NCBI GenBank assembly: GCA_026874595.1
Contig: CM049317.1
Location: 46,772,401 to 46,836,400, forward strand
Direction: 5' to 3'
Source of the DNA: Sipunculus nudus
Taxonomy: Eukaryota; Annelida; Sipuncula; Golfingiida; Sipunculidae
DNA length: 64,000 nt
A model generated the notes under the pieces. The model saw only the letters and a list, made by a program, of their open reading frames with translations, made no database searches and was not told the origin of the DNA. Made by a program: the position numbers and the translations under genes. This document shows positions 4,443 to 64,000 of this stretch, piece by piece; position 1 is the first letter of the stretch, and each line of letters starts with the position of its first letter.

Positions 4443-5148
4443 TACAGTGGTCCCTGCTTTGAGTGACCACACCCTCTGCCAAAGAAAAAAAATAAGGTCA
4501 GAGATTTCAGGTCAATCATCTGATAAAGGAAAGTGAAAATTGGTTATCATTTACATCTTGTTACAGTTTCACAAGTAAAAATCTGACCAAAGATGGCAAT
4601 AATCCAGCAATAATCAGAGTATTTTTCAAATTATCCAGTATGTTAGTTTCATATTACTTTACGCTACATTTAATATTCAAATAAAGATAATTTTTTATTT
4701 TAAATATGTTATTCACCATTAATTTATCCATACAACGCGTAAGTTGACCATCCGTGTCAGTTGATTTGATACTGATTTTCGCCCACTGAAACGTGCTAGG
4801 ATTAGTTTACAAAAGAAGGTAGTCTGAGTTACTAAAAACGGTCATATCATAAAAACTTGGAGGAGCTCCAATAGACCAATCTTTCGATCATCATTAACAA
4901 CATTATCACCCTATCATCACCTGTTTATGAGTGAATAATCATCAGTTTTTTTTAGAAAATGGTCCCATTACAAACCAGGTAAAATTGAGAATTTTGAAAA
5001 AAATTGGTAGTCAGTGGTCAAGTAAAGCAGGTGGTTACTTAATCAAGATTTATTTTAATTTTAAATATCCTGGAAATGGGAAATTTTGTCATGATTAACA
5101 GTAGATAGTTGCTTGATGTGAGGGTTGCTCAAACCAGAAACCACTGTA
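4443..5148. mobile_element. Non-autonomous DNA transposon, Tc1/mariner-like ends
   Basis: Imperfect terminal inverted repeats of about 28 bp. The left end reads CAGTGGTCCCTGCTTTGAG, and the reverse complement of the right end reads CAGTGGTTTCTGGTTTGAG. Both ends are flanked by TA, which fits a TA target-site duplication. The roughly 700-bp interior is AT-rich and encodes no transposase. The superfamily call rests only on the TA flank and is tentative. Confidence 0.65.
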
Positions 5149-29700: not shown

Positions 29701-29701
29701 A

Positions 29702-30002
29702 ATGTCTACTACCAGCTCTGACTACGAGGAAGTGGGGCTGACCACCGACATAAAGATATCCATGGAGCAGTCAGATTTCGCTCAGGTGATTTTCCACAAT
29801 GTAGCGGAGGTTTACCAGACAGACACCCCCATCCAGTGTCACTACACCATCACCCCCAGCCTGCATCCCTCATCCAAGGACTGGGTAGGGATCTATCGCG
29901 TGGGCTGGGGCACCAGTAACGAGTATGTTCACTTTCAGTGGGCCCCGCAGCCTGACAACTATCAGCCTGGTACTGAGGTAGACTGCAGTATTTCTATTCA
30001 AG
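29702..30002 (+). CDS. TAX1BP1-like: Autophagy receptor exon 1: start and first part of SKICH domain
   Basis: The acceptor TGCCCTCCAG|A is followed at once by ATG, so the 5' UTR is spliced. It encodes residues 1-100 plus one base. The SKICH domain begins near FAQVIFHNVAEVY and includes CHYTITP, KDWVGIYRVGW and YVHFQWAP, strongly diagnostic of the family. Donor CAAG|GTAAGA. An in-frame ATG lies 69 bp upstream, but it is before the acceptor and not used in this model. Confidence 0.93.
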
Positions 30003-33000
30003 GTAAGAGTTTATCATGGCCATTTACTTTAAAGCTTTACAATAACAATATTACACTTTGGAAGGTCAGCCTTTAACATAAACTTCATAATCTCAGTTTA
30101 TTTTGCACACACATTTGCATATTCTGAATAAAATAGGACATTGAATCCTCCACGAGGCCTCCTGTATATTGAGTTCTGTGAAAACCTCCATGAGGCCTCC
30201 TATGTATTGAGTTCTGCAGGCTGTCAGTCATGTTGAGCAGTGGTGATGGTTCTGTCACTCTGTCAATCCATTATTAAAACACAAATCGTAACAGTTAAAC
30301 CTAGAAAGTTTTACCTTGATATATATAGGCCGGAAGTGATGAAACATCCGAGGAAACACAAAATTAGGTCACAGACCTATATTTTGTCAGCTTTGGCATG
30401 ACAAAAAAAACAAAAAATACCCTTGGGAGTCAGACTATTCTTGGTGTTCAAGGCTGTTAGACAAAAACTTTTATTAGACCTTTTGATTGAAATAATTTGT
30501 CTCGTTCAAGCATTTATCCCAATGGGCCAGGGGCTGATATTTTGTAAATGTGAGGCAGCCATGTTAGATGTGGCACTGATTTTCTCACAGATGATACTTA
30601 ATATGATAGGAGTTACAAACATTTTTACAACCTCTTCAATGATTTCTGAAGTCAAAGTCTTGGATCATGTCATAGTACTCCTTTTGTTATCAGCCAAGTA
30701 CCTTCCAAAGGAAGATGGGGAATTTTACCAGTTTTGCTATGTGGCTCGGTCGGGACAAGTTCGAGGATCCAGCACACCTTTCCAGTTTCGACAGCAGCGC
30801 TCGGATGATTTTGTTGAAGTTGAAGATGAGGATCATGATGTCTTGATCATCAAGAGCAAATCTGTCGCTCTGGAAGACGACTTGAAGAAAGCTAACAAAG
30901 AGAAGGAAGAACTCATCAAGGTCAGTGTCTCAGCGAATTGCACTCATTCAGTGGAGTCAAGTCCACAGGAAATTTTAAAGTGGAAAATTTCTATTGGAAT
31001 TTATGGAATATTAAAGAATATTTATCATATTCTCAAATTTAGGGAATAGTTATGAAGTAATATTGTCTTTTTACTATGAAAGACCAGGAACATGAAAGCT
31101 GTGGCTTCAAATATTTTTTTCAACCATATTGACTTCAGTGATCACCATGTGTCTATTACTTCACCAGCCAGATGTCCAAGAGCATTTTGTGTTTTAAATT
31201 CAATAGAATAGGGGATTTGATGATTGTATGACATGTTTACTGATATGATTACTTTAATCTGGCCCATGAAATGATCTGACATATAAAGGTAACCTTTTTC
31301 ATCAACCGGGTTTGCTGATATATTGTTAGTCAAAATATTTGGCTAAAAGTATCCTTCATTTAGCTTCTAGAGAGGAATCCTAAAAAATTAAAATATTTGA
31401 AATTAAGTTTTTCATTAAATTATTTTCATGCATCATAAGTCATTCGAGTATGATCCTTTTTAGCAAACCTCTGAGCTTATGTGATGGTGTGGTTTTGTCT
31501 GCCATCCGTACGTTAACCTTTACTATCTCAAAAACGTAATGAGCTAACATCATAAAATTTTACGCAAAAAAATCAGACAACTAAAAATTCTATCAGATTT
31601 GGCTTATTTTATTGCTATCTGTTATGATTTAAATTTTCCAGGGAAAAAGTTAAAACCTTTAATAATCTTCTTCTCCAAAAAACTGGCCTGCCAGTATATA
31701 TTTGTATCCCCAGACAAAGTCGGGGGATACTGTTTTCATACCGGTCCCGCCGCAGCCGCCGCTGTCGCCGCCACCGCATATAAATCTTGTTGGCATGATA
31801 ACCCAAAAAATATTTCACGGAACTTTACCAAACTTGGTATATGTATAGATATGGGTAAGAGGATGACGCCTATTTAAAATGAGGTCATGACCTTTACTAG
31901 GAGAGTGTCCTTGACCTTGAATAGGTCCAATTTTGGGGAAAATAACACAAATTCTTTAATATCTCAAGAAATCTTGCATGGATTTATCCCAAAATCTAGT
32001 TGATGGAAGATCATGGATAGGGTTGTCATGTTCCAGAAACTGGTGGCGCCACCTATTATTCTTTACTTGTTTTCGTGCCGTTTAATACCCCCAAAATTGC
32101 CACCTTACAGTACTGTGAGCATTATAAGTCAAAACTAATGGACAGATTTCTTTTATATTATGCATATACATAGGTATGGGTTATGGGATGATGTTCATTT
32201 AAATTGGGGTCATGACCTTTCCTATGATAGTGGCCTTGACCTTGAATATTGCCATATATGGTGAAAATCACACACCTCTTATGATATCTCCAGTGTTGAT
32301 AGCCATATGGATTTCAAACATGACTTATGTATGGCCCACCACTAAAGTAAGAACCCTATAGGTTCTAGGGTCATGAGGTCAAAGGTCAAGGTCACTGGAC
32401 TGGCATTTTAAAAGATACTGTGGATGCATTTTAAGCCAAACTTTCATCCCAGGTCTTCCATCTTGAATATATAGCTCACTTGCCAATAGTGGATGATCCA
32501 TATAAATTTTGGGGTCACAAGGTCACAGGTCAAGGCCACAGGAGCTATCTGTCCAAAAATTATTTTCTGGATGATAATTCCTGCTTTTATTGATGTATTG
32601 ATTTCAAATTTGACTTATATATGTCCCATTGAAAAAGCAAGACTCCAATTGATTTTGGGTCATGAGGTCAAAGGTCAAGATCACAGGACACATCTTTAAA
32701 AAGATTGTGGATGCATTTTCAGCCAAACATTTCATCTCAGATCTTTCATCTTGCACATATAGTTCACCTGCCAAGAGAGGAAGACCCCTATCAGTTTTGA
32801 GGTCACAAGGTCAAAGTTGAAGGTCACAGGAGCCATCTGTCCAAAAATTTGTTTCTGGATGATAATTCCTTCTTTTATTGATGTATGGATTTCAAACTTG
32901 ACTTGTATTTGACCCATTGGTAAAGCAAGACCCGAATTGATTTCTGGGTCATGAGGTCAAAGGTCAAGGTCACAGGACATATCTTTAAAAAGATTGTGGA

Positions 33001-39000: not shown

Positions 39001-42000
39001 AACAGTGTTCTAGGCTGTTACATAACACCTTCACTCCTTACTCCAGTAATTACCAGAGAGCCTTTCTCCTCTCTCTCTTTCCCTTTCTCTCTTTCTCTGC
39101 CAGTCTAGTTCTCTTTCTCTCTCTCTCACCCCTATGCCTCCCTTGCTCCCTCCGCCCCTTTCTGTTGACAGGTACTATAAACCTGATTTATTAGATATAT
39201 ATGTTGATGCAATTAAGAAATGTGAATCAACTGAAATATTCACATATACATGTTATACTGTAAAAGTATAGTTACATTTTCAAACCTGGAAAAAGATGAT
39301 ATTATAAAAAAAGGAATTTATGTAAAAATTGTTCATAATTTTCTGGCTCAGAAGAATGGGAATTAAAATGATTTGCTTTGTTTCTCTAGCTTTCTGCTTG
39401 TGTTAAATATTTAATAATTATGAATAAACTTTTTTTTCCTGTAAGCACTGATTAATTAAATTTCATATCCTGTACGTATATGCAAGGGTATTGTAACTCC
39501 CACCATCCCCTTCCCCCACCCCACTAAGTCCTTGCTCTTTGGCACTGTAAACAATATTTCTATTGCTATAGCATAAAATTTAATAATTTGAAGAAAATAT
39601 ATACAGAGAGACAGAGGCGTTGTAACTCTCATCATAACCCCCCCATCAAGTCCTTCCGCCTGTGGAGTGGGGACTTTATAGCAACTGTATACATATCATT
39701 AAATAGAAAAAAAATTTATTAAAAAAATTGGATCTCATTAGACAAATGTGTAAAATGTTGAACTGTCAACAGCCTGTCAGAAAGGTATCCCATGGAAACA
39801 CATGGTCAGATCTTAAAATATTATTTGCAACAATTTCTTCAATCATATAAAACCAACCCATGGCCTAGATTACCTCTTCTCTCAGACTTTATCTACATTT
39901 CATAATATTTTAGATTTTAACCTTCCAGGTGTTTAAGCACTGTTGAATGCTCCGTCCCTCTCTCTCTATCTCCCTCTATCTCTACATCCAACCCTCCTTG
40001 CTGCCCACACTGTTTCCTTCTCCGAACCCCATCCCAATGTCAGCCTCAGTAAATGAGAACAATATGAATCAGATATATTCATATATTCATATATTGTATA
40101 ACTATTTGTTACCTATGTACATGCCAAAAATTATGTCAATATTGTGTAATATGTAGATGTGGTGGGCATCACAATAATGTACCTTGTCAAGACCTAAGAG
40201 ATATAATGTCATACAGTCACAATTCATAAATCCCCTCTTCAGCATAGTTAATCATAACATTATATCTGTCAAATTGAAATCTTGCGGGCTTCCATACACT
40301 ATAGATCCTTCAACAAATAGCCTTATCATCATTCTACCACTGCTTAGTGTACTGTCATTGCATTCATATTTGCTCAAATATATCCCTATTTTCAACAGCT
40401 CCCAAATAAATAAAAAGTAAACCCCTATATTTCTCCCTACTAATCCATCAGTCAGGTAATTTCATACATCATTTACTCACATATTACATTATATTCCTTT
40501 ATAATAGCCTAACATGTCCATGATATTCATAAGGTTTGTCGACTAAAAATAGCATCACAATGGTGATACATTTATAGTCCAATCATGATCAGCTGAGCAC
40601 TGTGACCCATGGGTCCCTTGTTTACAGTTCTTGTGAAATTTTTATATATTATTTATGTTTTGAGTTAGGAATATGACCAGTCATACTGTGAGTGTGAAAA
40701 TCTTACCTGAAAGTTTGTGATGGTTTTACAGGACCAGGAAGACAAGATGACCAAGATGACTGATGAACTTCAGGAGAAGGTTGCCCAGCTACAGAGTCTG
40801 CAGGAGGACCACGTCAGACTTAACGAGGTACATGTAGGCCTATTGTTTCTAGATATTGCGAATGTATCGCATATTGTTGCTCAGGGGTTTGTATGTCCTA
40901 TTGAAAATGTTGGCAAAAAATTACGAGAATTCTACGAATCTAAGTGGCTAGAAGAAATAAAATTAAAGCCAAAACTAAGAACATGCGCATTACTAAAACC
41001 TTCATTCTCTACTGAACCTTATGTCACTCGTTATTTAACGCGAGAAAAGAGATCCTTAATGGCACAGCTTAGATGTGGAATCTTACCGTTAGAAATTGAA
41101 GTTGGGAGGTTTAAAAATATTCGAGACGCAATCACAGGTAAATTTAGAAAATTAAAACCCGAGGAAAGAATATGCACCATGTGTGAGGACAATTCAATTG
41201 AAGATGAAATCCATTTCATATGCTCATGTCCAAAATATGAGGAAATAAGAGAGAAACTTTACAAATCTATTCATAACAGTGAAACCGAGTTGTTAGGATT
41301 ATCTCCTAAAAGTCAATTTATATACCTGCTTCAAAACTGTGTTAAAGAAATCAGTGACTTTGTAGCCAAAGCATGGGAGATAAGAAAGAACTGTTTGTAC
41401 GCCTGTACCACCATTATCGACTAGAGAATTGAGTGTCATATAAACCCCTGCGAGGGTTGGGTACTATAAGCAGACATTTATTATATTTTTCATGTATTAT
41501 TGTACATGACACTATAATAAATAAACTCATACATGTTTAAAAGAGGTTTATATTCATTAAGTCTATAGGCCCTACAAGTATGCAGTATTACTTTATAGAT
41601 TTCCTAACAATGTTTGCCAGTATATATGCCTGTGTGTTTTGTCATACATATTTGCCTTATTTGTTTACATTTCCTTATCTAATTGAATTTTAAACCATGG
41701 AGATAAGCAGTAATTTACAGACTTTTCTGTGGGCATCTTCTGTACATTAAAGGGGCCTATTCACATAACAGGTATGTTTATTATGCATGAAGCATGAAGT
41801 TTTCTCCTTAAAAGTGAATGGTATCATCCAGTACTTAATCTTAACACCACATGCTTACTCCTTTAGAGGAAATATGTAGCACTGGGCACGAACAGTGGCT
41901 CAAACATAATCATTGTGTTTGCTCACACGCAGATCCATAACAATGTATAAAACAGGTGAAATGAGATTATAAGTTCATGTGCTGGGATGGTTTGCTCGGA

Positions 42001-53000: not shown

Positions 53001-56000
53001 GTTCTTAACCAGATTGGTACACAAGCTTGTCCTTTTAGTACTATTTACTAAATATAATAGCATCCACGGAATATTTTTCTGTGTTCAGAAAAACAATTAT
53101 TTTCAAGGATAACATGATTTTAGTGATTCACATGAAATTCTTTTGTGAACTCCTCATTATCATTAAATTATTGAACATGTATGGATACAGGTTTGTTTAA
53201 AATAACTGTTTTTCAACAAATTGATAGAATTGTTTTTTGAAAGCTGATCCGAGAACTGTTTGATATAGGTACTAAGTGATGTACAGTAACTTAACTGCTA
53301 GAAATGGAAATGTTTGACAGGACTAAGTGAGGTACAATAATTTATCTGCTGGAAAGGAAATGTTTGACAGGACTCCGTGAGGTAGAATAATTTAACTGCT
53401 GGAAATGGAAATGTTTGACAGGACCAAGTGAGTTACAATAATTTATCTGCTGGAAATGGACATGTTTTACAGGACTAAGCGAGGTACAATAATTTAACTG
53501 CTGGAAATGGAAATGTTTGACAGGACTAAGTGAGGTACAATAATTTAACTGCTATAAATGGAAATGTTTTACAGGAGAACTGTAAGTGAGGTACAATAAT
53601 TTAAATACTGCAACTTTTAAACATTTGATAGGGGAACTAAGTCAAGGACAGTAATTTAACTAACCAGTAAGTGATGGTTAACATATGGACAAAGATGTGA
53701 GATTATAGATGAGAGACTATTAATATGAGACTATAGGTGTGAGACTTTGAAGTGAGACTATAGGTATGAAACTATAGAAGTGAGACTATAGATGTGAGAC
53801 CATAAAAGTGAGGTTAGAAATGAGAGACTATTAATGTGAGACTATATATGTGTGAGACTATAGAAATGGGACTATACTTGTGAGACTATAGATGTGAGAC
53901 TATAGATGTGAGTCTATAGATGTTAGACCATAAAAGTGAGGCTAGAAATGAGACTATAGATGTGAGACTTTGTGTGAGACTATAGATTTGAGACTATAGG
54001 TGTGAGCCTTTAGATTCGAGACTGAATTACAAACATTGTCTTTTTCAGGAGGTGCGCTATCCACCACAAGGAACAGCATTCCCTTCAATCCCATACCCAC
54101 AGCAGGCACCACCAGTCGCCCCAACAGCTCCAACAGATACAACTGGAAAACACATCAGTCAGGTAAAGGAATCCATGTAGCAGTCTTGCTGACTAGTTAT
54201 TTCTTATATGAACCAACTGTAGGTGGGGAGTCTCATCACAAACAATGTTGTCATAATATTACACAGAGTATAAACTGAGGCATGGATATATCATGGTAAG
54301 CCCTGGGTCCTTGATATCATGGAGATTAGGAGTGCATGTAGCATAGTTACGGTTATTCTTTTATAACAAATTTGTGAGGAATGTTAAATGTTTATCATAA
54401 CTGGTAAATATTTAACATGAAAAAGGCTCAAGTGAATTCAGTGGTAAATACCAAGAACATGATACATTTAAAGTTAGACATTCAGTCCATAATCACCTGA
54501 TGTATATAAAACATAAAAATTGATAAAAAGGGATCACAACAAAGGCATTGATAGTGCTATCTTATTTTCTCATGTTAAATAAATCAAATACCTTTTGAAA
54601 GGGAAAACAATAAGTATTTATATTTAATGATATACAAGAAAAAAAAATAATGTATAAACACTGAGTGACATTTCTGATTTCAGTTTTTGGACAAGAAATG
54701 CTAAAAGATAAATTGATTAATCATTGTAGTAAGCATCCTTCCTATATGTGGAAACAGCAGTACCATGACTTATAAATTATTCTGTAAGGCCAAAAAAAGG
54801 TATGTTTCTCAGGCACTTTTTTCCAGAAATCAGTGTGGGTTTGTGATTTTTTTAACCTTTTTTTGGTATGTTTTGATTAAAATGTCATATGGTGAGGGAA
54901 AAGCATGATAATAACAAACTTTTTGGCTAAACATGTAAAAACACAACATAACGAAAGATCTGATCAAAATTGTGTTGTTTTATCTTCTTGAAAGATATAA
55001 ATCAAATCAAAATATTTGATATGGGGGTTAAAATTGACTCAGGTGGTGCCTTAGAACCATACTTTTTTTTGGCCTCAGCAGTGTTTGAGTTGACTGAGTA
55101 GTCACAGTCTGGCATGGCAGTTCATGTTCATAATCAAAAGGTCTAACAGTACAAAGCAAGGCAGTTTATGTTCATAATCAAAGGTCTAACAGTTCACAGC
55201 AAGGCAGTTCATGTTCATAATCAAAAGGTCTAACAGTACATAGCAAGGCAGTTCATGTTCATAATCAAAAGGTCTAATAGTACATAGCAAGGCAGTTCAT
55301 GTTCATAATCAAAAGGTCTAACAGTACATAGCAAGGCAGTTTATGTTCATAATCAAAAGGTCTAATAGTACACAGCAAGGCAGTTTATGTTCATAATCAA
55401 AAGGTCTAACAGTACACAGCAAGGCAGTTTATGTTTATAATCAAAAGGTCTAATAGTACATAGCAAGGCAGTTCATGTTCATAATCAAAAGGTCTAACAG
55501 TACACAGCAAGGCAGTTTATGTTCATAATCAAAAGGTCTAATAGTACATAGCAAGGCAGTTCATGTTCATAATCAAAAGGTCTAACAGTACACAGCAAGG
55601 CAGTTTATGTTCATAATCAAAAGGTCTAATAGTACATAGCAAGGCAGTTCATGTTCATAATCAAAAGGTCTAACAGTACACAGCAAGGCAGTTTATGTTT
55701 ATAATCAAAAGGTCTAATAGTACATAGCAAGGCAGTTCATGTTCATAATCAAAAGGTCTAACAGTACACAGCAAGGCAGTTTATGTTCATAATCAAAAGG
55801 TCTAACAGTACACAGCAAGGCAGTTTATGTTCATAATCAAAAGGTCTAACAGTACACAGCAAGGCAGTTTATGTTTATAATCAAAAGGTCTAATAGTACA
55901 TAGCAAGGCAGTTCATGTTCATAATCAAAAGGTCTAACAGTACACAGCAAGGCAGTTTATGTTCATAATCAAAAGGTCTAACAGTACACAGCAAGGCAGT

Positions 56001-59000
56001 TTATGTTCATAATCAAAAGGTCTAATAGTACATAGCAAGGCAGTTCATGTTCATAATCAAAAGGTCTAACAGTACACAGCAAGGCAGTTTATGTTCATAA
56101 TCAAAAGGTCTAATAGTACATAGCAAGGCAGTTCATGTTCATAATCAAAAGGTCTAATAGTACATAGCAAGGCAGTTCATGTTCATAATCAAAAGGTCTA
56201 ACAGTACACAGCAAGGCAGTTTATGTTCATAATCAAAAGGTCTAATAGTACATAGCAAGGCAGTTCATGTTCATAATCTAAAGGTCTAACAGTACACAGC
56301 AAGGCAGTTTATGTTCATAATCAAAAGGTCTAACAGTACATAGCAAGGCAGTTTATGTTCATAATCAAAAGGTCTAACAGTACACAGCAAGGCAGTTCAT
56401 GTTCATAATCAAAAGGTCTAACAGTACATAGCAAGGCAGTTTATGTTCATAATCAAACGGTCTAATAGTACATAGCAAGGCAGTTTATGTTCATAATCAA
56501 AAGGTCTAACAGTACACAGCAAGGCAGTTTATGTTTATAATCAAAAGGTCTAATAGTACATAGCAAGGCAGTTCATGTTCATAATCAAAAGGTCTAACAG
56601 TACACAGCAAGGCAGTTCATGTTCATAATCAAAAGGTCTAACAGTACATAGCAAGGCAGTTTATGTTCATAATCAAACGGTCTAACAGTACATAGCAAGG
56701 CAGTTCATGTTCATAATCAAAAGGTCTAACAGTACATAGCAAGGCAGTTTATGTTCATAATCAAAAGGTCTAATAGTACATAGCAAGGCAGTTCATGTTC
56801 ATAATCAAAAGGTCTAACAGTACACAGCAAGGCAGTTTATGTTCATAATCAAAAGGTCTAATAGTACATAGCAAGGCAGTTCATGTTCATAATCAAAAGG
56901 TCTAACAGTACACAGCAAGGCAGTTTATGTTCATAATCAAAAGGTCTAACAGTACACAGCAAGGCAGTTTATGTTTATAATCAAAAGGTCTAACAGTACA
57001 CAGCAAGGCAGTTCATGTTCATAATCAAAAGGTCTAACAGTACACAGCAAGGCAGTTTATGTTCATAATCAAAAGGTCTAACAGTACACAGCAAGGCAGT
57101 TCATGTTCATAATCAAAAGGTCTAATAGTACATAGCAAGGCAGTTCATGTTCATAATCAAAAGGTCTAACAGTACACAGCAAGGCAGTTTATGTTCATAA
57201 TCAAAAGGTCTAACAGTACACAGCAAGGCAGTTTATGTTCATAATCAAAAGGTCTAACAGTACATAGCAAGGCAGTTCATGTTCATAATCAAAAGGTCTA
57301 ACAGTACACAGCAAGGCAGTTTATGTTCATAATCAAAAGGTCTAACAGTACACAGCAAGGCAGTTCATGTTCATAATCAAAAGGTCTAATAGTACATAGC
57401 AAGGCAGTTCATGTTCATAATCAAAAGGTCTAACAGTACACAGCAAGGCAGTTTATGTTCATAATCAAAAGGTCTAACAGTACACAGCAAGGCAGTTTAT
57501 GTTTATAATCAAAAGGTCTAATAGTACATAGCAAGGCAGTTCATGTTCATAATCAAAAGGTCTAACAGTACACAGCAAGGCAGTTCATGTTCATAATCAA
57601 AAGGTCTAACAGTACATAGCAAGGCAGTTTATGTTCATAATCAAACGGTCTAACAGTACATAGCAAGGCAGTTCATGTTCATAATCAAAAGGTCTAACAG
57701 TACATAGCAAGGCAGTTTATGTTCATAATCAAAAGGTCTAATAGTACATAGCAAGGCAGTTCATGTTCATAATCAAAAGGTCTAACAGTACACAGCAAGG
57801 CAGTTTATGTTCATAATCAAAAGGTCTAATAGTACATAGCAAGGCAGTTCATGTTCATAATCAAAAGGTCTAACAGTACACAGCAAGGCAGTTTATGTTC
57901 ATAATCAAAAGGTCTAACAGTACACAGCAAGGCAGTTTATGTTTATAATCAAAAGGTCTAACAGTACACAGCAAGGCAGTTCATGTTCATAATCAAAAGG
58001 TCTAACAGTACACAGCAAGGCAGTTTATGTTCATAATCAAAAGGTCTAACAGTACACAGCAAGGCAGTTCATGTTCATAATCAAAAGGTCTAATAGTACA
58101 TAGCAAGGCAGTTCATGTTCATAATCAAAAGGTCTAACAGTACACAGCAAGGCAGTTTATGTTCATAATCAAAAGGTCTAACAGTACACAGCAAGGCAGT
58201 TTATGTTTATAATCAAAAGGTCTAACAGTACATAGCAAGGCAGTTCATGTTCATAATCAAAAGGTCTAACAGTACACAGCAAGGCAGTTTATGTTCATAA
58301 TCAAAAGGTCTAACAGTACACAGCAAGGCAGTTCATGTTCATAATCAAAAGGTCTAATAGTACATAGCAAGGCAGTTCATGTTCATAATCAAAAGGTCTA
58401 ACAGTACACAGCAAGGCAGTTTATGTTCATAATCAAAAGGTCTAACAGTACACAGCAAGGCAGTTTATGTTTATAATCAAAAGGTCTAATAGTACATAGC
58501 AAGGCAGTTCATGTTCATAATCAAAAGGTCTAACAGTACACAGCAAGGCAGTTCATGTTCATAATCAAAAGGTCTAACAGTACATAGCAAGGCAGTTTAT
58601 GTTCATAATCAAACGGTCTAACAGTACATAGCAAGGCAGTTTATGTTTATAATCAAAAGGTCTAACAGTACATAGCAAGGCAGTTTATATTCATAATCAA
58701 AAGGTCTTAAAGTTCATAGCAAGGCAGTTTATGTTTATAATCAAAAGGTTTCCTTACAGTTCACAGCAGGGCAGTTTATGTTCATAATCAAAAGGTCTTA
58801 CAGTACATAGCAAGGCAGTTTATGTTCATAATCAAAAGGTTTTCTTACAGTTCACAGCAGGGCAGTTTATGTTCATAATCAAAAGGTCTTACAGTACATA
58901 GCAAGGCAGTTTATGTTTATAATCAAAAGGTTTCCTTACAGTTCACAGCAAGGCAGTTTATGTTCATTATCAAAAGGTCTAACAGTACACAGCAAGGCAG

Positions 59001-61641
59001 TTTATGTTCATAATCAAAAGGTCTAACAGTACATAGCAAGGCAGTTTATGTTCATAATCAAAAGGTCTTACAGTACATAGCAAGGCAGTTTACGTTCATA
59101 AACAAAAGGTTTCCTTACAGTTCACAGCAAGGCAGTTTATGTTCATAATCAAAAGGTCTAACAGTACATAGCAAGGCAGTTTTTGTTCATAATCAAAAGG
59201 TTTCCTTACAGTTCACAGCGAGGCAGTTTATGTTCATAATCAAAAGGTCTTACAGTACATAGCAAGGCAGTTTATGTTTATAATCAAAAGGTTTCCTTAC
59301 AGTTCACAGCAGGGCAGTTTATATTCATAATCAAAAGGTCTTACAGTACATAGCAAGGCAGTTTATGTTTATAATCAAAAGGTCTTACAGTACATAGCAA
59401 GGCAGTTTATGTTTATAATCAAAAGGTTTCCTTACAGTTCACAGCAGGGCAGTTTATGTTCATAATCAAAAGGTCTTACAGTACATAGCAAGGTAGTTTA
59501 TGTTTATAATCAAAAGGTTTCCTTACAGTTCACAGCATGGCAGTTTATGTTCATAATCAAAAGGTCTTACAGTACATAGCAAGGCAGTTTACGTTTATAA
59601 TCAAAAGGTTTCCTTACAGTTCACAGCAGGGCAGTTTATGTTCATAATCAAAAGGTCTTACAGTACATAGCAAAGCAGTTTATGTTTATAATCAAAAGGT
59701 TTCCTTACAGTTCACAGCAAGGCAGTTTATGTTTATAATCAAAAGGTCTTACAGTACATAGCAAGGCAGTTTATGTTTATAATCAAAAGGTTTCCTTACA
59801 GTTCACATCAGGGCAGTTTATGTTCATAATCAAAAGGTCTTACAGTACATAGCAAGGCAGTTTATGTTTATAATCAAAAGGTTTCCTTACAGTTCACAGC
59901 GTGGCAGTTTATGTTCATAATCAAAAGGTCTTACAGTACATAGCAAGGCAGTTTATGTTTATAATCAAAAGGTTTCCTTACAGTTCACAGCATGGCAGTT
60001 TATGTTCATAATCAAAAGGTCTTACAGTACATAGCAAGGCAGTTTATGTTTATAATCAAAAGGTTTCCTTACAGTTCACAGCAAGGCAGTTTATGTTTAT
60101 AATCAAAAGGTCTTACAGTACATAGCAAGGCAGTTTATGTTTATAATCAAAAGATTTCCTTACAGTTCACAGCAGGGCAGTTTATGTTCATAATCAAAAG
60201 GTCTTACAGTACATAGCAAGGCAGTTTACGTTTATAATCAAAAGGTTTCCTTACAGTTCACAACAAGGCAGTTTATATTCATAATCAAAAGGTCTTACAG
60301 TACATAGCAAGGCAGTTTATGTTTATAATCAAAAGGTCTTACAGTACATAGCAAGGCAGTTTATGTTTATAATCAAAAGGTTTCCTTACAGTTCACAGCA
60401 GGGCAGTTTATGTTCATAATCAAAAGGTCTTACAGTACATAGCAAGGCAGTTTATGTTTATAATCAAAAGGTTTCCTTACAGTTCACAGCAGGGCAGTTT
60501 ATGTTCATAATCAAAAGGTCTTACAGTACATAGCAAGGCAGTTTACGTTTATAATCAAAAGGTTTCCTTACAGTTCACAGCAAGGCAGTTTATATTCATA
60601 ATCAAAAGGTCTTACAGTACATAGCAAGGCAGTTTATGTTCATAATCAAAAGGTTTTCTTACAGTTCACAGCAGGGCAGTTTATGTTCATAATCAAAAGG
60701 TCTTACAGTACATAGCAAGGCAGTTTATGTTCATAATCAAAAGGTTTCCTTACAGTTCACAGCAAGGCAGTTTATGTTCATAATCAAAAGGTCTTACAGT
60801 ACATAGCAAGGCAGTTTACGTTTATAATCAAAAGGTTTCCTTACAGTTCACAGCAAGGCAGTTTATATTCATAATCAAAAGGTCTTACAGTACATAGCAA
60901 GGCAGTTTATGTTCATAATCAAAAGGTTTTTTTACAGTTCACAGCAGGGCAGTTTATGTTCATAATCAAAAGGTCTTACAGTACATAGCAAGGCAGTTTA
61001 CATTTATAATCAAAAGGTTTCCTTACAGTTCACAGCAAGGCAGTTTATATTCATAATCAAAAGGTCTTACAGTACATAGCAAGGCAGTTTATGTTCATAA
61101 TCAAAAGGTTTTCTTACAGTTCACAGCAGGGCAGTTTATGTTCATAATCAAAAGGTCTTACAGTACATAGCAAAGCAGTTTAAGTTTATAATCAAAAGGT
61201 TTCCTTACAGTTCACAGCAAGGCAGTTTATATTCATAATCAAAAGGTCTTACAGTACATAGCAAGGCAGTTTATGTTCATAATCAAAAGGTTTTCTTACA
61301 GTTCACAGCAGGGCAGTTTATGTTCATAATCAAAAGGTCTTACAGTACATAGCAAGGCAGTTTATGTTCTTAATTGAAAGTTTTTCCTACAGTATCCTGA
61401 TGCCCAGGAAGACAGAGCAGGAACTCTGCAGGCCAGAGGGGCTTCGACAGGGACAGGAACTGAGCGCAGAGGTCAGGAACCAGAGGGCGCCTGTGGAGGT
61501 GATTTATCGCAGACTGGCAAAGCGAACCAGGCTGCTTCAGTGTCAGACAGTGCTCTCCCTCCCCCTATTCTCCCAGAAGTACTCCCCTCTGCCAGGCTGG
61601 CAGCTATTCGAGCAGCTTGTAAGTGTCTGAAGGCTTTATAA
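29702..61641 (+). CDS. TAX1BP1-like: TAX1BP1/CALCOCO-family selective-autophagy receptor (SKICH domain plus coiled coil), 15 exons
   Basis: Family members (TAX1BP1, NDP52/CALCOCO2, CALCOCO1) link ubiquitinated or damaged cargo to LC3/GABARAP on autophagosomes; TAX1BP1 also restrains NF-kB signalling. Exons 1-2 encode a complete SKICH domain (residues about 28-133) with KDWVGIYRVGW, EYVHFQW, DGEFYQFCYV and STPFQFR. Residues 149-153 (DVLII) align with the CLIR (LVV) of NDP52/TAX1BP1. Exons 3-13 encode a long Glu/Lys/Leu/Gln-rich coiled coil (residues about 160-715) and exon 14 a Pro/Gln-rich linker. Fifteen exons join in frame: 763 codons to the end of exon 14 and 845 if exon 15 ends at its own stop. 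Human TAX1BP1 has 789 residues. No C-terminal UBZ zinc fingers are visible. The paralogue cannot be settled: length favours TAX1BP1, while absent zinc fingers leave CALCOCO1-like open. Confidence 0.9.
30694..30920 (+). CDS. TAX1BP1-like: Autophagy receptor exon 2: end of SKICH, CLIR-like patch, coiled-coil start
   Basis: Acceptor TTATCAG|CC in phase 1 completes Ala101. It encodes AKYLPKEDGEFYQFCYVARS and then the SSTPFQFR end of the SKICH fold. An acidic stretch (VEVEDEDHD) leads into VLII at 150-153, the position of the non-canonical LC3-interacting LVV in NDP52 and TAX1BP1. It ends KANKEKEELIK at donor AAG|GTCAGT. The exon 1/2 phases add to exactly 176 codons. Confidence 0.93.
31704..33701. 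mobile_element. Transposon with 12-bp perfect terminal inverted repeats and ~290-bp AGGTCA-rich subunits
   Basis: The left end is GTATCCCCAGAC (31704-31715) and the right end GTCTGGGGATAC (33690-33701), perfect inverses. The interior has four to five subunits of about 290 bp, each with GGTCATGAGGTCAAAGGTCA and CCATCTGTCCAAAAA phrases. Near-identical short frames at 33176 and 33465 are products of this repetition. A 12-16 bp G-run precedes the right end. It lies in intron 2 of the autophagy-receptor gene. The AGGTCA style is common in mollusc repeats. Confidence 0.75.
33705..35465. other. Intron 2, 3' part, with family A fragment
   Basis: No exon other than exon 3 is supported here. At 34575-34995 there is an inverted fragment of repeat family A (phrases 'gtatacaagactggtggtgccacc', split here for length, and 'tgatttgacacatcagcctg' recur about every 140 bp). 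Confidence 0.5.
34575..34995 (-). repeat. Interspersed repeat family A, inverted fragment
   Basis: Three subunits of about 140 bp carry ACAAGACTGGTGGTGCCACC and CATCCTGAAATTGTGC variants. These are the reverse complements of the GGCGCCACCAGTCTTG and GCACAATTTCAGG phrases of copy 2 at 20425-21510. Confidence 0.6.
35470..35583 (+). CDS. TAX1BP1-like: Autophagy receptor exon 3: coiled coil (residues 177-214)
   Basis: Acceptor GATTTATAG|AAC. 114 nt, phase 0. Encodes NKSLLETERDSLLRKLLEYS and continues with a Glu/Leu-rich heptad pattern to ELKELVQ. Donor CAG|GTAAAC. Local GC is clearly higher than the flanking intron. Confidence 0.9.
35695..36030 (-). repeat. Interspersed repeat family A, terminal fragment
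   Basis: GCATTCTAAGGAATGC at 35711-35726 is the inverse of the right end of copy 2 (21475-21490). The following 'tgtttgcattcacttatttggccca' region also matches the inverse of 21425-21460. This is a terminal fragment in opposite orientation, 700 bp from the 34575-34995 fragment; exon 3 lies between them. Confidence 0.6.
36071..36230. repeat. 22-bp minisatellite
   Basis: Seven nearly identical tandem copies of GGTTTGTGCAGAAAGTGAAT plus GA, with a spacing of exactly 22 bp (36071, 36093 and on). In intron 3. Near-perfect identity suggests recent expansion. Confidence 0.95.
36343..40625. repeat. Composite interspersed repeat block in intron 3
   Basis: It starts with TAGCTCAGCTGACTATAAGT and GTCCGTCCGTCCGTCC, a start typical of a widespread mollusc repeat. 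It has 3'-like ends GATCAGCTGAGCACTGTGAC near 40590 and a similar CTTCAGCTAAGCACAGTGAC near 38935. The interior is duplicated: 38640-38930 and 39730-39930 share GTCAACA, ATATTATTTGCAACAATTTC and ATATTTTAGATTTTA in the same order. C-runs occur at 37728-37738 and 38510-38534, and a CT-rich tract at 39060-39130. No coding sequence. Confidence 0.55.
40732..40827 (+). CDS. TAX1BP1-like: Autophagy receptor exon 4: coiled coil (residues 215-246)
   Basis: Acceptor TGGTTTTACAG|GAC. 96 nt, phase 0. Encodes DQEDKMTKMTDELQEKVAQL and ends HVRLNE. Donor GAG|GTACAT, which is atypical at +3 to +5; it overlaps the left copy of a LINE target-site duplication (see 40836-41529). If not spliced here, the frame stays open for a further 198 codons into the LINE fragment. 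Confidence 0.88.
40836..41529 (+). mobile_element. 5'-truncated LINE tail with intact C-terminal reverse-transcriptase coding region
   Basis: An uninterrupted frame to the stop at 41422-41424 encodes about 195 residues of a LINE C-terminus. It includes KPKLRTCALLK, RSLMAQLRCGILPLEIEVGR and a Cys/His cluster C-x2-C-x9-H-x2-C (ICTMC...EIHFIC), a pattern typical of the region after the reverse transcriptase in CR1/RTE-like elements. The 3' UTR ends in ATAATAAATAAACTC. TACATGT flanks the insert on both sides (40829-40835 and 41530-41536), a likely 7-bp target-site duplication. The open frame suggests a recent insertion. Confidence 0.8.
41540..42830. other. Intron 4, nothing assigned
   Basis: AT-rich intron. 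Near 42725-42765 a phrase GATCAGCTGAGCGTATTGGT resembles the 3' end of the repeat block at 36343-40625. No exon or RNA gene supported. Confidence 0.5.
42834..42977 (+). CDS. TAX1BP1-like: Autophagy receptor exon 5: coiled coil (residues 247-294)
   Basis: Acceptor ATGATTGAAG|GAA, with a pyrimidine tract a little upstream. 144 nt, phase 0. Encodes ELASLNGKLLGLQETLDQKD and ends EEEKEMIK. Donor AAA|GTAAGT. Clear heptad spacing of Leu. Confidence 0.9.
43533..43721 (+). CDS. TAX1BP1-like: Autophagy receptor exon 6: coiled coil (residues 295-357)
   Basis: Acceptor CTGAATGACAG|ACA. 189 nt, phase 0. Starts THCSTSEDRLQGYMQEVDKL and ends SLLEAKEADK. Donor AAG|GTAAAG. The acceptor has a modest pyrimidine tract; the alternative AG sites nearby would break phase or shift the frame. 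Confidence 0.85.
44032..44169 (+). CDS. TAX1BP1-like: Autophagy receptor exon 7: coiled coil (residues 358-403)
   Basis: Acceptor TTTTTTGTCAACAG|CAA. 138 nt, phase 0. Encodes QTIEDLTIKLKDTEDQLSTM and ends KMAQLLE. Donor GAG|GTAACA. Confidence 0.9.
45064..45192 (+). CDS. TAX1BP1-like: Autophagy receptor exon 8: coiled coil (residues 404-446)
   Basis: Acceptor CCATATTGCAG|CAA. 129 nt, phase 0. Encodes QAKTESHTLKVHCGRLETKQ and ends TLNEKTK. Donor AAG|GTATTT. Confidence 0.88.
45961..46176 (+). CDS. TAX1BP1-like: Autophagy receptor exon 9: coiled coil (residues 447-518)
   Basis: Acceptor TTACGATCAG|GAA, preceded by a pyrimidine-rich 40-bp tract. 216 nt, phase 0. Starts EKEDLASMLAEVESKLKSET; the C-terminal part SHLNERYARLQKENEETKRQ is a strong coiled-coil segment. 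Donor CAG|GTCAGA. Confidence 0.92.
46380..47174. mobile_element. Non-autonomous hAT transposon in intron 9
   Basis: Perfect 10-bp terminal inverted repeats, TAGTGGTGGG and CCCACCACTA, flanked by a perfect 8-bp direct repeat ATTCTGTT (46372-46379 and 47175-47182), the hallmark of hAT insertion. Subterminal inverted ATCGAT/ATCATCGAT motifs occur near the ends. 795 bp with no transposase. The intact duplication suggests a fairly recent insertion. Confidence 0.9.
47473..47654. mobile_element. MITE with TACAGTAAA/TTTACTGTA ends
   Basis: The left end is TACAGTAAAACCTTGCC and the reverse complement of the right end TACAGTAAAGCCTCTTAA. The body repeats 'accacctc' phrases on one strand (ACCACCTCAAAAA occurs twice). 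It starts and ends with TA, consistent with a TA target duplication. 182 bp, in intron 9, 90 bp upstream of exon 10. Related in style to the decayed copy at 29340-29525. Confidence 0.75.
47746..47890 (+). CDS. TAX1BP1-like: Autophagy receptor exon 10: coiled coil (residues 519-566)
   Basis: Acceptor TTTGTGTTGCAG|GCT. 145 nt, ends in phase 1. Encodes AAWHEAEAEMKREIEDLKER and ends SFEVKKLTRQ plus one base. Donor CAAG|GTAAGT. Confidence 0.92.
48548..48661 (+). CDS. TAX1BP1-like: Autophagy receptor exon 11: Ala/Gln-rich segment (residues 567-604)
   Basis: Acceptor CTGTATTCCACAG|TG completes Val567. 114 nt, phase 1 to phase 1. Encodes VSQGKVQQNGAAVVEKAENQ and ends SQTSIVF. It is less coiled-coil-like than its neighbours and may be a hinge. 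Donor TTTG|GTGAGT. Being symmetric (1-1) it could be skipped without a frameshift. Confidence 0.88.
48936..49091. repeat. Near-perfect foldback (inverted repeat) of ~70-bp arms
   Basis: The left arm starts CAAACCAGGTGAGTGCGT and includes AAGAGGTTACCGGGTGAGTC. The right arm ends with the inverse, GACCCGGTAACCTCTT-like and ACGCACAAACCTGGTTTG. The arms are separated by only about 15 bp (GAGTGCGCGCACGA). In intron 11. It may be a small foldback transposon. Confidence 0.85.
49095..49555. repeat. Diverged tandem duplication of ~280 bp
   Basis: About 49130-49300 and 49385-49545 share, in order, 'gggactatgt'/'aggactatgt', 'ggaatttcattgat', 'gatccat' and 'taaaccata'. Diverged copies, non-coding, in intron 11. 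Confidence 0.5.
49905..50000. repeat. (TA)n tract with two TG interruptions
   Basis: About 95 bp of alternating TA with two TG (TATGTATA) interruptions. Intron 11. Confidence 0.95.
50556..50663. repeat. 108-bp spacer-free perfect palindrome
   Basis: 54-bp arms with no loop, centred between 50609 and 50610 on CACGTG. The left arm runs from TAGTCCATACATGG to GGACGGACATCAC and the right arm is its exact inverse ending CCATGTATGGACTA. I checked the arms base by base and saw no mismatch. Flanks (GGTAT left, GGTAGGT right) do not extend the symmetry. In intron 11. Confidence 0.95.
51100..51147 (+). promoter_or_regulatory. Pair of perfect CREs with CCAAT box in intron 11
   Basis: TGACGTCA at 51100-51107 and again at 51140-51147, with ATTGG (CCAAT on the minus strand) at 51133-51137 and a CpG-rich GGTTGCGCGTCACC between. 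The surrounding 200 bp is less AT-rich than the intron. About 500 bp upstream of exon 12, so it could be an internal promoter or an element-borne enhancer. Motif evidence only. Confidence 0.35.
51652..51944 (+). CDS. TAX1BP1-like: Autophagy receptor exon 12: longest coiled-coil exon (residues 605-702)
   Basis: Acceptor TTGTGTTGTAG|TT completes Val605. 293 nt, returns to phase 0. Starts VDESEVADLTNTELQSQLDA and includes KQKYKHMYHEEREKNNLLHK and QQKQDEIDRLNGMLEDTRSH. Donor CAG|GTAAGG. High GC compared with flanks. Confidence 0.94.
52003..52085 (+). mobile_element. Possible tRNA-derived SINE head
   Basis: TGGCCCAATGGTTA (52007-52020) matches the Pol III A box, and TGGTATGAACCCC (52051-52063) is a diverged B box 44 bp later, the spacing found in tRNA-derived SINEs. 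The downstream body boundary is not clear. It does not fold as a functional tRNA. Confidence 0.35.
52633..52701 (+). CDS. TAX1BP1-like: Autophagy receptor exon 13: end of coiled coil (residues 703-725)
   Basis: Acceptor TTTTATTACCAG|GCT. 69 nt, phase 0. Encodes AVIAEQKKEINGLRRPVVLP followed by QLQ. Donor CAG|GTATGT. Confidence 0.9.
53270..53645. repeat. 51-bp minisatellite with acceptor-like TGTTTGACAG
   Basis: About seven monomers containing TTTAACTGCTGGAAATGGAA then ATGTTTGACAGGACTAAGTG. TGTTTGACAG-type motifs lie at 53311, 53361, 53412, 53463, 53514 and 53565, a period of 50-51 bp. In intron 13, upstream of exon 14. Confidence 0.92.
53697..54025. repeat. ~14-15-bp minisatellite (GTGAGACTATAGAT)
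   Basis: Over twenty degenerate copies of GTGAGACTATAGAT or close variants. The array ends about 25 bp before exon 14, directly abutting the TCTTTTTCAG acceptor tract. Confidence 0.92.
54049..54162 (+). CDS. TAX1BP1-like: Autophagy receptor exon 14: Pro/Gln/Thr-rich linker (residues 726-763)
   Basis: Acceptor TTGTCTTTTTCAG|GAG. 114 nt, phase 0. Encodes EVRYPPQGTAFPSIPYPQQA and a Pro/Thr-rich stretch ending GKHISQ. Low-complexity, disordered linker after the coiled coil, as in other family members. Donor CAG|GTAAAG. Confidence 0.9.
54788..55074. mobile_element. PIF/Harbinger-like MITE, copy 2
   Basis: Same GGCCAAAAAAA..TATG.TTCTCAGGCA ends as 28147-28483, in opposite orientation. Shared internal phrases on the inverted strand include AAGCATGATAATAACA (versus the inverse of the 28350 region) and a TTTTATCTTCTTGAAAGATA block. 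Flanks are TAA and TCA, so the 3-bp target duplication has one mismatch. Lies about 35 bp left of the 44-bp array. Confidence 0.7.
55108..61380. repeat. 6.3-kb tandem array of ~140 monomers (44 bp, and 47+44 bp dimers)
   Basis: Left domain (55108 to about 58700): 44-bp monomers AAGGCAGTTTATGTTCATAA + TCAAAAGGTCTAACAGTACA + CAGC with C/T variants. Right domain (about 58700-61380): a 91-bp dimer alternating a 47-bp GGTTTCCTTACAGTTCACAG type with a 44-bp GGTCTTACAGTACATAGC type (for example 59427 to 59518). The last, degenerate monomer contains the functional acceptor of exon 15 (TTTTTCCTACAG). Stops occur in every frame of the 44-bp unit, so it is not coding. Intron 14. Confidence 0.97.
61393..61641 (+). 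CDS. TAX1BP1-like: Autophagy receptor exon 15: Gly/Thr/Ser-rich C-terminal region
   Basis: Acceptor GTTTTTCCTACAG|TAT, phase 0. Encodes YPDAQEDRAGTLQARGASTG, then SVSDSALPPPILPEVLPSAR and LAAIRAA. Two endings are possible. Read through, the frame stops at 61639-61641 (CKCLKAL-stop, 845 residues in all). Spliced, a good donor GCTT|GTAAGT at 61619 gives 75 codons plus one base and joins 61724. No zinc finger is present. A different frame with a 5' ATG at 61364 is a shadow. Confidence 0.82.
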   Translation, partial: YPDAQEDRAGTLQARGASTGTGTERRGQEPEGACGGDLSQTGKANQAASVSDSALPPPILPEVLPSARLAAIRAACKCLKAL

Positions 61642-61919: not shown

Positions 61920-62850
61920 GGGAGAAGCTTCATCGTACCCTTGATTGATATCTGGTTTCAGATCTTATGTCTCTTATATCTCCATCCACCTGCCAAATAT
62001 GTCATAGGCTCAGTGTCAAATATTTACTGTAATGTGTTAAAACTTCTACGTTTTCTTACCAAAATTGATACACAATTCATTTAATTCCATTTTGTAAATA
62101 TAATATTGAATTTAATTCTCCAACACTCGTTGTAAGGGTGTTCATCTGTCATAAAATGAGGATAGAGGGCACTATTCATTCATCTGAACTAAACATGTAA
62201 TATACTAAAATACAATGTTAAAGCATATTTAGAAACTGCTTTTAGCCAAATGACTCATTCACGTAAAATTACAAGGTCTACAGAGGTGAATTTTGCATTT
62301 AATGTTTATTCTTTAAATCCAGACTGGCTTTGTCAGAATTTCATTGGAAGCCTAAAAATAAGGTTGGGGTGTCCTTTGTTCTGTGAGTCTGTGAAAGCAT
62401 GATTTTGAGTTTCTTGAGAGTCATGCTCTTTCAAATAGCTGATAAAAAATTTGCTCTGAAGAATAAAGAAATAATGTACATACTTCAAACATGGAAAAAA
62501 AACCCCTTGATTATTGTAACAAAAAATTGCGAAATTATGATGGCCAATTTTGAGCATAATTCCATTCATAAGAATTGCTTTTTGGCAGTATATACATAAA
62601 TTAGCCTTCTATTTTGGTAGCATTATCAGTGGCCTTATGCTGATAGTATTACCTACCATTTCTAAATCTAAAATGTATTTAAATTTATTTTTGAAAATTG
62701 ATAAATCATACTCATGCACAGTTTCAGCTAAAGAATCAAGTACTTTTTATTGAAACATGATATTGTTCCTCATTTAAGCAAATTTCACTGTCAACTTGAT
62801 AGAAACTTGATAGAAAATTGGGCCATCTGATTCTTCAAAATGTTAACACC
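61920..62850. other. Downstream region of the autophagy receptor, nothing assigned
   Basis: AT-rich, with several AATAAA-like words but no decisive polyadenylation site. Frames at 62333-62753 on both strands lack protein character. Probably 3' UTR or intergenic. Confidence 0.45.
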
Positions 62851-62854
62851 TGAC

Positions 62855-63335
62855 TGACACCCCATTTCCTGTCTTGGTAGGCCCCACACTGACAGCACCT
62901 GACTTACAAACCCTGTTCCTGTCTTGGTAGGCCCCATTTTGACAGGACCTGATCATGACTTAGTCCCCTTTTCATGTCTTGGTAGGCCCCATGTTGACCT
63001 CACCTGATCATCACATACTCCCCTTTTCATGTCTTGATAGGTCCCATCCAGACAGCACTGGACTTAAACACCCCTTTTCATGTCTTGGTACGTCCCATCC
63101 TGACAGCACCTGACTTAAACACCCCATTTCATGTCTTGGTAAGTCCCATCATGACAGAACTTGACTAAAACACTTCTTTTCATGTCTTGGTAGGTCCCAT
63201 GTTGACAGCACCTGATCATGACTTATACCCCTTTTCATGTCTTGGTAGGTCTCATGTTGACAGCACCTGATCATGACTTGCACCCCATTTTCATGTCTTG
63301 GTAGGTCCCATGTTTACAGCACCTGATCTTGACTT
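62855..63335. repeat. ~53-bp minisatellite with donor-like CTTGGTAGGT
   Basis: About nine monomers such as TTTTCATGTCTTGGTAGGTC + CCATGTTGACAGCACCTGAT. TTCATGTCTT starts at 62971, 63025, 63077, 63128, 63179, 63233 and 63290 (period 51-57 bp). Non-coding. Confidence 0.92.
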
Positions 63336-64000
63336 ACCGTAAAAACTTGCATATAAGTCGATCTCGCATATAAGTCGAGTATAAATTTTCAGGGTAAATA
63401 TCAGGTAAAAATTTTTTCAAGCCATTCTTGAGGTCATAACAGGTCTGAAGCAGCATACATGACCATCGAGAGTAGTGTGACAGGCCACTGGGGAAAGGTG
63501 AATCATATGACTGGCCACTCGTTTTTTACATTCATACCACTCAAATTTTTTTTTAAACTGTAAAAATGTCATTTGTTTTGTAGTGCAATCTATTGAAAAG
63601 TTATTGGGCATCATAAAGACTCTAAGATTAATAAATATAACAGGTCGATACTTTAAGTATTTTGCAGAAATAAAGATCGTCTGACACCCAGATAGGCAGG
63701 TGCGCGATGATAGAACAGCCAAGGATTTCTCACACTTTCCGTCATTGCTCATTTATTTTAAACTTTTAATGATTGTTTTTGTCAGATATCAATAAAAACA
63801 TGACTATTTAAACGTGTTACTAAAACGGAATTGTCGCGGACTTCTCTACATTTTATATAATCTAAGGTGAAAAGAACGCGCGAAGTTGGACCAAGCGAGT
63901 AGCCTGAAAAGGCCACGTGACAGTGTAAGCTGTCCTCAGCTTGGTCATATCTGTGGATCAAGGGCAGTAATTTTATTATCAGAGATTGTTATTATACATT
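63336..64000. other. Unassigned right edge, possible repeat start
   Basis: Begins with a GTAAAAACTTGCATATAAGT and CTCGCATATAAGTCGAGTAT direct repeat, the style of an interspersed repeat end. The minus frame 63417-63752 has an unremarkable sequence that I do not recognise. The window ends before any partner terminus. Confidence 0.35.

Follow-up and report, generated by a model that had tools for sequence, protein, structure and literature searches.

In an autophagy-receptor-like gene of the annelid Sipunculus nudus, a 6.3-kb tandem array (array A) fills the 3' portion of the intron that separates exons 14 and 15, and the working acceptor of exon 15, as far as sequence allows us to place it, is the most diverged link of that array. 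The last monomer aligns with its neighbours without gaps, in register and through the acceptor AG itself, and the array ends exactly at the splice site. We consider it probable that the last ~37-47 bases of the intron seeded array A by duplication in place, while the end copy stayed the working acceptor, and this reading is favoured over the rival origins weighed below. Positions are those of the window, by which we mean the whole stretch of 64,000 nucleotides that was analysed, and L013 denotes the next 10 kb of the same contig.

Array A and the acceptor of exon 15

The gene joins a SKICH domain (Pfam PF17751, found in two exons with E 2.4e-20 and 2.5e-7), a coiled coil and a zinc finger of the autophagy-receptor type (PF18112, Zn-C2H2_12, E 4.9e-18, in L013). 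With an N-terminal SKICH domain and a C-terminal autophagy-receptor zinc finger both present, its product is predicted to be TAX1BP1/CALCOCO/NDP52-like. Thirteen exons were placed, those before exon 14 by eye, and the chain from the SKICH exons to exon 14 may miss exons; the exon numbers are those of the earlier note. Joined together, exons 14-17 give a single open frame with a stop after the zinc finger. This continuity supports the donor at 61619, the frame, an acceptor at either 61392 or the in-frame AG at 61407, and the TAX1BP1/CALCOCO-like identity of the gene. It favours the frame used but does not tell 61392 from 61407, and the two positions score 0.51 and 3.33, respectively, with a generic splice matrix and 3.66 and -3.62 with a gene-derived one. 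A second frame is open across exon 15, with a third-position GC of 0.71 vs 0.41 in the frame used. We infer that splicing still goes to 61392, and the continuous frame of exons 14-17 lends indirect support to normal splicing despite the repeats. Elsewhere in the gene, directly after an exon, an open frame at 40711-41424 resembles by eye what we take to be the tail of a LINE reverse transcriptase.

The earlier note had placed the array at 55108..61393. The array is real, and its limits shift slightly: its first base is 55112, while 61392 is the last base of the acceptor AG and 61393 the first of the exon. TRF reports a single array (55112-61374, period 44, 140.5 copies), which we parsed into 141 monomers, 112 of them 44 bp long, 27 of 47 bp, one of 43 bp and one terminal (Table 1). 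The left domain carries CTAACAG 58 times and CTAATAG 23 times, and holds exact block duplications of 766 and 433 bp with a spacing of 968 bp. These blocks suggest recent expansion, and show that array A does rearrange. In the right domain, 44-mers and 47-mers mostly alternate as 91-bp dimers. The 25-30 monomers with a pyrimidine tract and ACAG that had been reported from this domain are indeed there, as 27 copies of TTT[CT][CT]TTACAG.

Table 1. Coordinates of the arrays and exons discussed in the text
Feature	Position	Strand	Remarks
SKICH-domain exons	29701..30920	+	PF17751; about 29701-30002 and 30694-30920, limits by eye
Exon 14	54049..54162	+	phase 0; donor GTAAAG at 54163
Array A, 44/47-bp tandem array	55112..61392	+	fills the 3' portion of the intron that separates exons 54049-54162 and 61393-61618
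Left domain of array A	55116..58722	+	monomers 1-82, 44-mers (one 43-mer), nearly all with TCTAACAG / TCTAATAG
Right domain of array A	58723..61355	+	monomers 83-140: 31 44-mers (mostly TCTTACAG) and 27 47-mers (TTTYYTTACAG)
Terminal monomer 141	61356..61392	+	inferred working 3' splice site of exon 15; ACAG ending at 61392
Inferred exon 15	61393..61618	+	226 nt; donor GT at 61619
Array B, first block	62850..63337	+	55-56-bp units with TTGGTAG, then GTCCCATG
Exon 16	L013 1488-1680	+	acceptor at L013 1487
Zinc-finger exon 17	begins L013 2186	+	

Alignment bore out the proposal that the working acceptor is itself an array member that has diverged. Against the 47-mer consensus the terminal monomer has 30/37 identical positions, against individual 47-mers 28-32/37, and it occupies, after a 44-mer, the slot due for a 47-mer. 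A pyrimidine tract and an AG are common to all acceptors, and an array might resemble an acceptor by chance or convergence alone; we give this explanation a negligible probability. Outside the tract and the AG, 18 of the first 22 bases of the terminal monomer also match the consensus. Shuffling the terminal monomer 3000 times yields at most 21/37, and elsewhere in the window 37-mers of either strand reach 23/37 at most. Over the last 15 bases, where the exon-15 acceptor matches at 12/15, none of 2029 CAG sites outside array A (window, both strands) attains at least 12/15. The gene's ten other acceptors are no closer, with 4-9/15 against the consensus (one window, that of acceptor 51651, being placed 1 base off); against the best single 47-mer they reach 5-10/15 with 51651 corrected, and the exon-15 acceptor reaches 13. 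The shuffle, CAG-site and other-acceptor controls together refute a chance resemblance.

The homology stops at the splice site. Past it, 7 of 21 bases of exon 15 match, a level reached by 41% of random stretches. The terminal monomer is also set apart from the rest of the array by its divergence, as it differs from its nearest relative at 5/37 positions. The other 139 comparable monomers show 0-2 differences over their full length to the nearest relative of the same length (119, 17 and 3 monomers, respectively), the single 43-mer being left out of this comparison for want of a same-length partner. This difference suggests that the copy at the exon edge stayed out of homogenisation. Five positions (15, 20, 21, 26 and 32) separate the terminal monomer from monomer 139. 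The difference at position 15 completes a branch-like CTTAAT (61369-61374, with its A at 61373, 19 nt from the AG) that is absent from the 140 other monomers, and the difference at position 26 extends the pyrimidine run from 7 to 8 nt.

Origin of the array and the neighbouring intron

The window maps to C12:46772401-46836400 of a 1.43-Gb assembly. A 26-base core of the monomer, searched across this genome at up to 3 mismatches, has 140 forward and 0 reverse copies, a search that would miss relatives of the monomer more than 3 mismatches away in 26; a control pattern gave 0. The window alone holds the same 140 copies, so no dispersed satellite within 3 mismatches of the core supplied the monomer of array A. 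The terminal acceptor sequence occurs once in the genome, the exact 26-base core has no match in the viral contigs, and there are no Rfam matches at gathering scores. At the mismatch level searched, the monomer thus appears to be a local invention. A dispersed satellite or a transposon-borne array that inserted beside exon 15 and donated its acceptor might be connected with a MITE-like element that ends 36 bp upstream of array A (54787-55075), but outside this locus neither strand of the assembly holds a copy of the monomer core with 3 or fewer mismatches in 26, and we regard such a donation as very improbable. The MITE-like element itself has 30-nt inverted ends, 90% complementary and 229 nt apart, and the window contains no second copy of its 18-base end when as many as 3 substitutions are allowed.

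The next intron stands in the same relation to its exon. Array B continues past the window from L013 1132 and runs across the exon-16 acceptor, with TRF rows in L013 that end at 1499 and 1560. Its units read TTTTCATGTCTTGGTAG before the junction and GTCCCATGTTGACAGCACC after it, and the exon-16 acceptor is the last such unit. Compared with the consensus of 15 upstream copies, the edge of exon 16 matches at 20/24 intron bases and at 17/21 of the first coding bases, a total of 37/45, where the maximum at 4527 other AG sites is 24/45. The unit of array B has 7 matches in the genome (up to 3 mismatches in 38), all at the array B locus.

Both arrays recall the amphioxus 'mirage' minisatellites, which the excerpted texts of PMC3087553 and PMC3902484 describe as tandem repeats of exon-intron boundaries, in Adh3 and the globins BflGb6 and BflGb9, with troponin C and PGBD5 as cited cases. 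According to the same excerpts, many mirage units carry splice signals while splicing is reported to be undisturbed, and units at the edge of the BflGb6 cluster escape homogenisation (PMC3087553, PMC3902484). BflGb6 haplotypes hold 6 and 3 units of 150-160 bp each, and Adh3 units are 10-72 bp long, in the part of PMC3087553 that treats them. Array B fits this description in that its boundary-spanning units (62850-63337 and L013 1132-1487) include coding bases, as in the BflGb6 mirage. Array A is like the mirages, so far as these excerpts describe them, in that its units are built from a splice boundary and take in the intron side of the junction, the terminal monomer running through the AG, and in that its edge unit is excluded from homogenisation as in BflGb6. 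It is unlike them in stopping at the acceptor, in repeating no exon bases, so that its units do not span the boundary, and in counting 141 units over 6.3 kb. Array A is best called a variant, far larger and confined to the intron side. Length instability between haplotypes is a mirage trait, and in the one assembly used here the 968-bp-spaced exact blocks suggest recent change.

The earlier note had offered two possibilities, that the acceptor seeded the amplification or that the array spread over the exon edge. We favour the former on two grounds, and keep the latter as a rival: a search of 1.43 Gb that allowed 3 mismatches places the monomer core at this locus only, and the neighbouring intron is related in the same way to the edge of its own exon. 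Under local seeding, the end of the intron, some 44-47 bases comprising the branch region, the pyrimidine tract and the acceptor AG, would have been copied in tandem where it stood. Through unequal exchange or slippage the copies would then have grown to 141 monomers, dimeric on the exon side and, in the left domain, more uniform and duplicated in blocks. The exon-adjacent copy would have stayed the working acceptor and escaped homogenisation, and the upstream copies would have become intron filler, less well recognised than the real site. The direction of this account (acceptor first), its mechanism and its order of expansion are what we infer from the present state of the locus, and a neighbouring array that converted an older acceptor would leave the locus in the same end state.

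That array A was instead born elsewhere in the intron, spread over the intron end by unequal exchange or conversion and replaced an older acceptor seems to us unlikely. The exact block duplications of the left domain show that the array rearranges, its left edge is without a trace of the seed, and a local copy of at least 26/37 exists for 34% of 1500 intron positions sampled in this gene, so arrays are common near acceptors; all of this is in keeping with a spread. However, a spreading array would have to stop exactly at the AG and yet supply a working order of branch site, tract and AG. In the branch-site model described below, the best acceptor of the array is the terminal monomer, which is also its most diverged member; an original acceptor would account for this more readily than a recent overrun would. 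Array B, moreover, includes coding bases of exon 16, and this would be less expected of arrays born inside introns.

The left end of array A was also compared with the monomer. Similarity of the left flank is at chance, with 1140 of 1500 random windows as good and 615 of 3000 in an end-anchored comparison, and we rejected left-edge homology as proof of seeding for this reason. A TCACAG 6-mer at the left edge, picked out post hoc and with a chance of about 0.004, is only suggestive as a seed trace. Monomer 1 departs from the internal monomers by a single difference and monomer 2 by a few, so the left end shows no visible age.

Splice scoring of the array copies

On sequence grounds, the copies in array A would mostly not act as decoys. 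In a model that combines a branch site, the pyrimidine tract and AG scanning (its weights, like our splice matrices, are approximations rather than a published program), the real acceptor scores 7.93 and the best site in array A 5.3-7.3, so that none of the 694 AGs of the array equals the real site at any of three settings. Eight sites of the array score as high as the median acceptor of the gene (6.77) under two of the three settings. By the same model, 18-22 sites in the 18.1 kb of the gene's other introns score at least as high as the real exon-15 site. The branch-like CTAAC and CTTAC motifs lie 2 nt before ACAG and are thus too close to serve that ACAG. The earlier view of 6.3 kb of decoy motifs as a special load on splicing was therefore overstated, since no AG of array A equals the real site once a branch site is modelled.

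Matrices without a branch site give a less clear-cut picture of how strong the decoys may be. With a generic matrix 38 of the 694 AGs reach the real score, and with a matrix derived from ten acceptors of the gene 5 do, counts that are not independent because the copies are a few kinds repeated. The density of such sites by the generic matrix is 6.1 per kb in array A vs 8.3 per kb in the other introns. A simpler rule-based count agrees with the branch-site model at low sensitivity, 2-5 of 11 real acceptors passing it. Use of 690 of the 694 AGs would lead to a premature stop, and any leak would thus lower the amount of protein. Four pieces of array A show no RNA folding beyond that of shuffled sequence.

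These results also bear on a question of function rather than origin, namely whether array A is a splicing regulator in which AGs and branch-like motifs compete and array length tunes exon inclusion or mRNA level. The AGs that reach the real score without a branch site (38 or 5, by matrix), the eight sites at the gene-acceptor median and the premature stops that would follow from nearly all possible uses are what such a regulator might draw on. We nevertheless hold this role to be improbable, as no AG comes up to the real site under any setting of the branch-site model, other introns hold more such sites per kb, the four array pieces do not fold beyond shuffles, and published mirages are reported, in the excerpts of PMC3087553 and PMC3902484, not to disturb splicing. 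For array B, the AG is kept in 12 of the 15 upstream copies, and 3 of these 12 outscore the exon-16 acceptor (8.28 vs 7.82); by sequence its decoys are about as strong as the real exon-16 site.

Arrays at other acceptors and the growth of introns

Arrays are common in the introns of this genome. Within 10, 20 and 30 nt of an array lie 2, 3 and 4 of 12 acceptors of the gene, respectively, and 28.5-30% of intron positions in the gene are in or within 10-30 nt of an array. We rejected the idea that acceptors are hot spots for arrays, because the counts at acceptors are not above this intron background. A test of right array edges at acceptors gave 1, 2 and 3 of 12 (p 0.14, 0.014 and 0.0014) and was post hoc, and no donor of the gene (0/12) has an array start within 30 nt.

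A wider control was drawn from the CCT family, using 17 of the best 30 of 63 matches and leaving out 13 (the GroEL frames L015-L023, together with L024, L025, L026 and L029). Four of the 17 loci are without a candidate acceptor and 13 have one, some with weak tracts. None of these 13 inferred acceptors has a local copy of at least 26/37 of its last 37 bases, the highest value being 23, compared with 18% of 780 control positions. In the gene of array A, 2 of 13 acceptors have such a copy vs 34% of the 1500 intron positions, and acceptors would on both comparisons look spared rather than hit. The CCT-family sample thus speaks against acceptor-derived arrays being a rule in this genome.

The nine GroEL frames left out of this control (L015-L023, on contigs C61, C62, C66, C72, C73, C75, C89 twice, and C99) are equal-scoring GroEL-family frames of 547 aa. 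Their contigs, of 0.06-3.3 Mb, belong to the same assembly and are probably bacterial, perhaps representing symbiont strains or contamination.

Repeats accompany other exons of the array A gene as well. A third array, with a 51-bp unit (L013 1977-2176), ends 9 nt before the exon-17 acceptor and has no clear homology to that acceptor itself. A 14-bp repeat at 53693-54023 ends 25 nt before the exon-14 acceptor, and each of the last four introns of the gene ends in or beside an array. Other tandem arrays in the window lie at 12612-13292 (181 bp, 3.8 copies) and 32306-33574 (289 bp, 4.4 copies).

Two further systems are useful for comparison. In the Rogers model, as cited in the excerpted text of PMC3087553, introns are gained or grow by tandem duplication of segments containing AG/GT. 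Array A is like that model, as far as it is cited there, in its local duplication around splice signals, and unlike it in that no new intron arises: an intron already present gains length from its 3' end. With ordinary intronic minisatellites and VNTRs array A shares a 44-bp unit, higher-order blocks and homogenisation, and it is unlike them in that its end is the inferred functional 3' splice site. Literature search listings gave no published work on array A.

A broader and rather speculative extension of local seeding is that introns in this genome lengthen from their own 3' splice site. The acceptor would be copied upstream repeatedly, and decayed copies would be kept since only the copy adjacent to the exon has the complete order of branch site, tract and AG. 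Two neighbouring introns would have followed this course independently, and array lengths might vary between individuals and modulate the joining of the last exons; we think this unlikely to hold as a whole. Array A itself is a clear case confined to one locus, in which an intron seems to have grown by several kb through copying its own acceptor, and it comes from an animal other than the amphioxus in which arrays of this kind were described. It makes testable how the splicing machinery ignores more than 100 relatives of a real acceptor, and whether animal introns grow, and become polymorphic in length, by way of arrays at splice sites.
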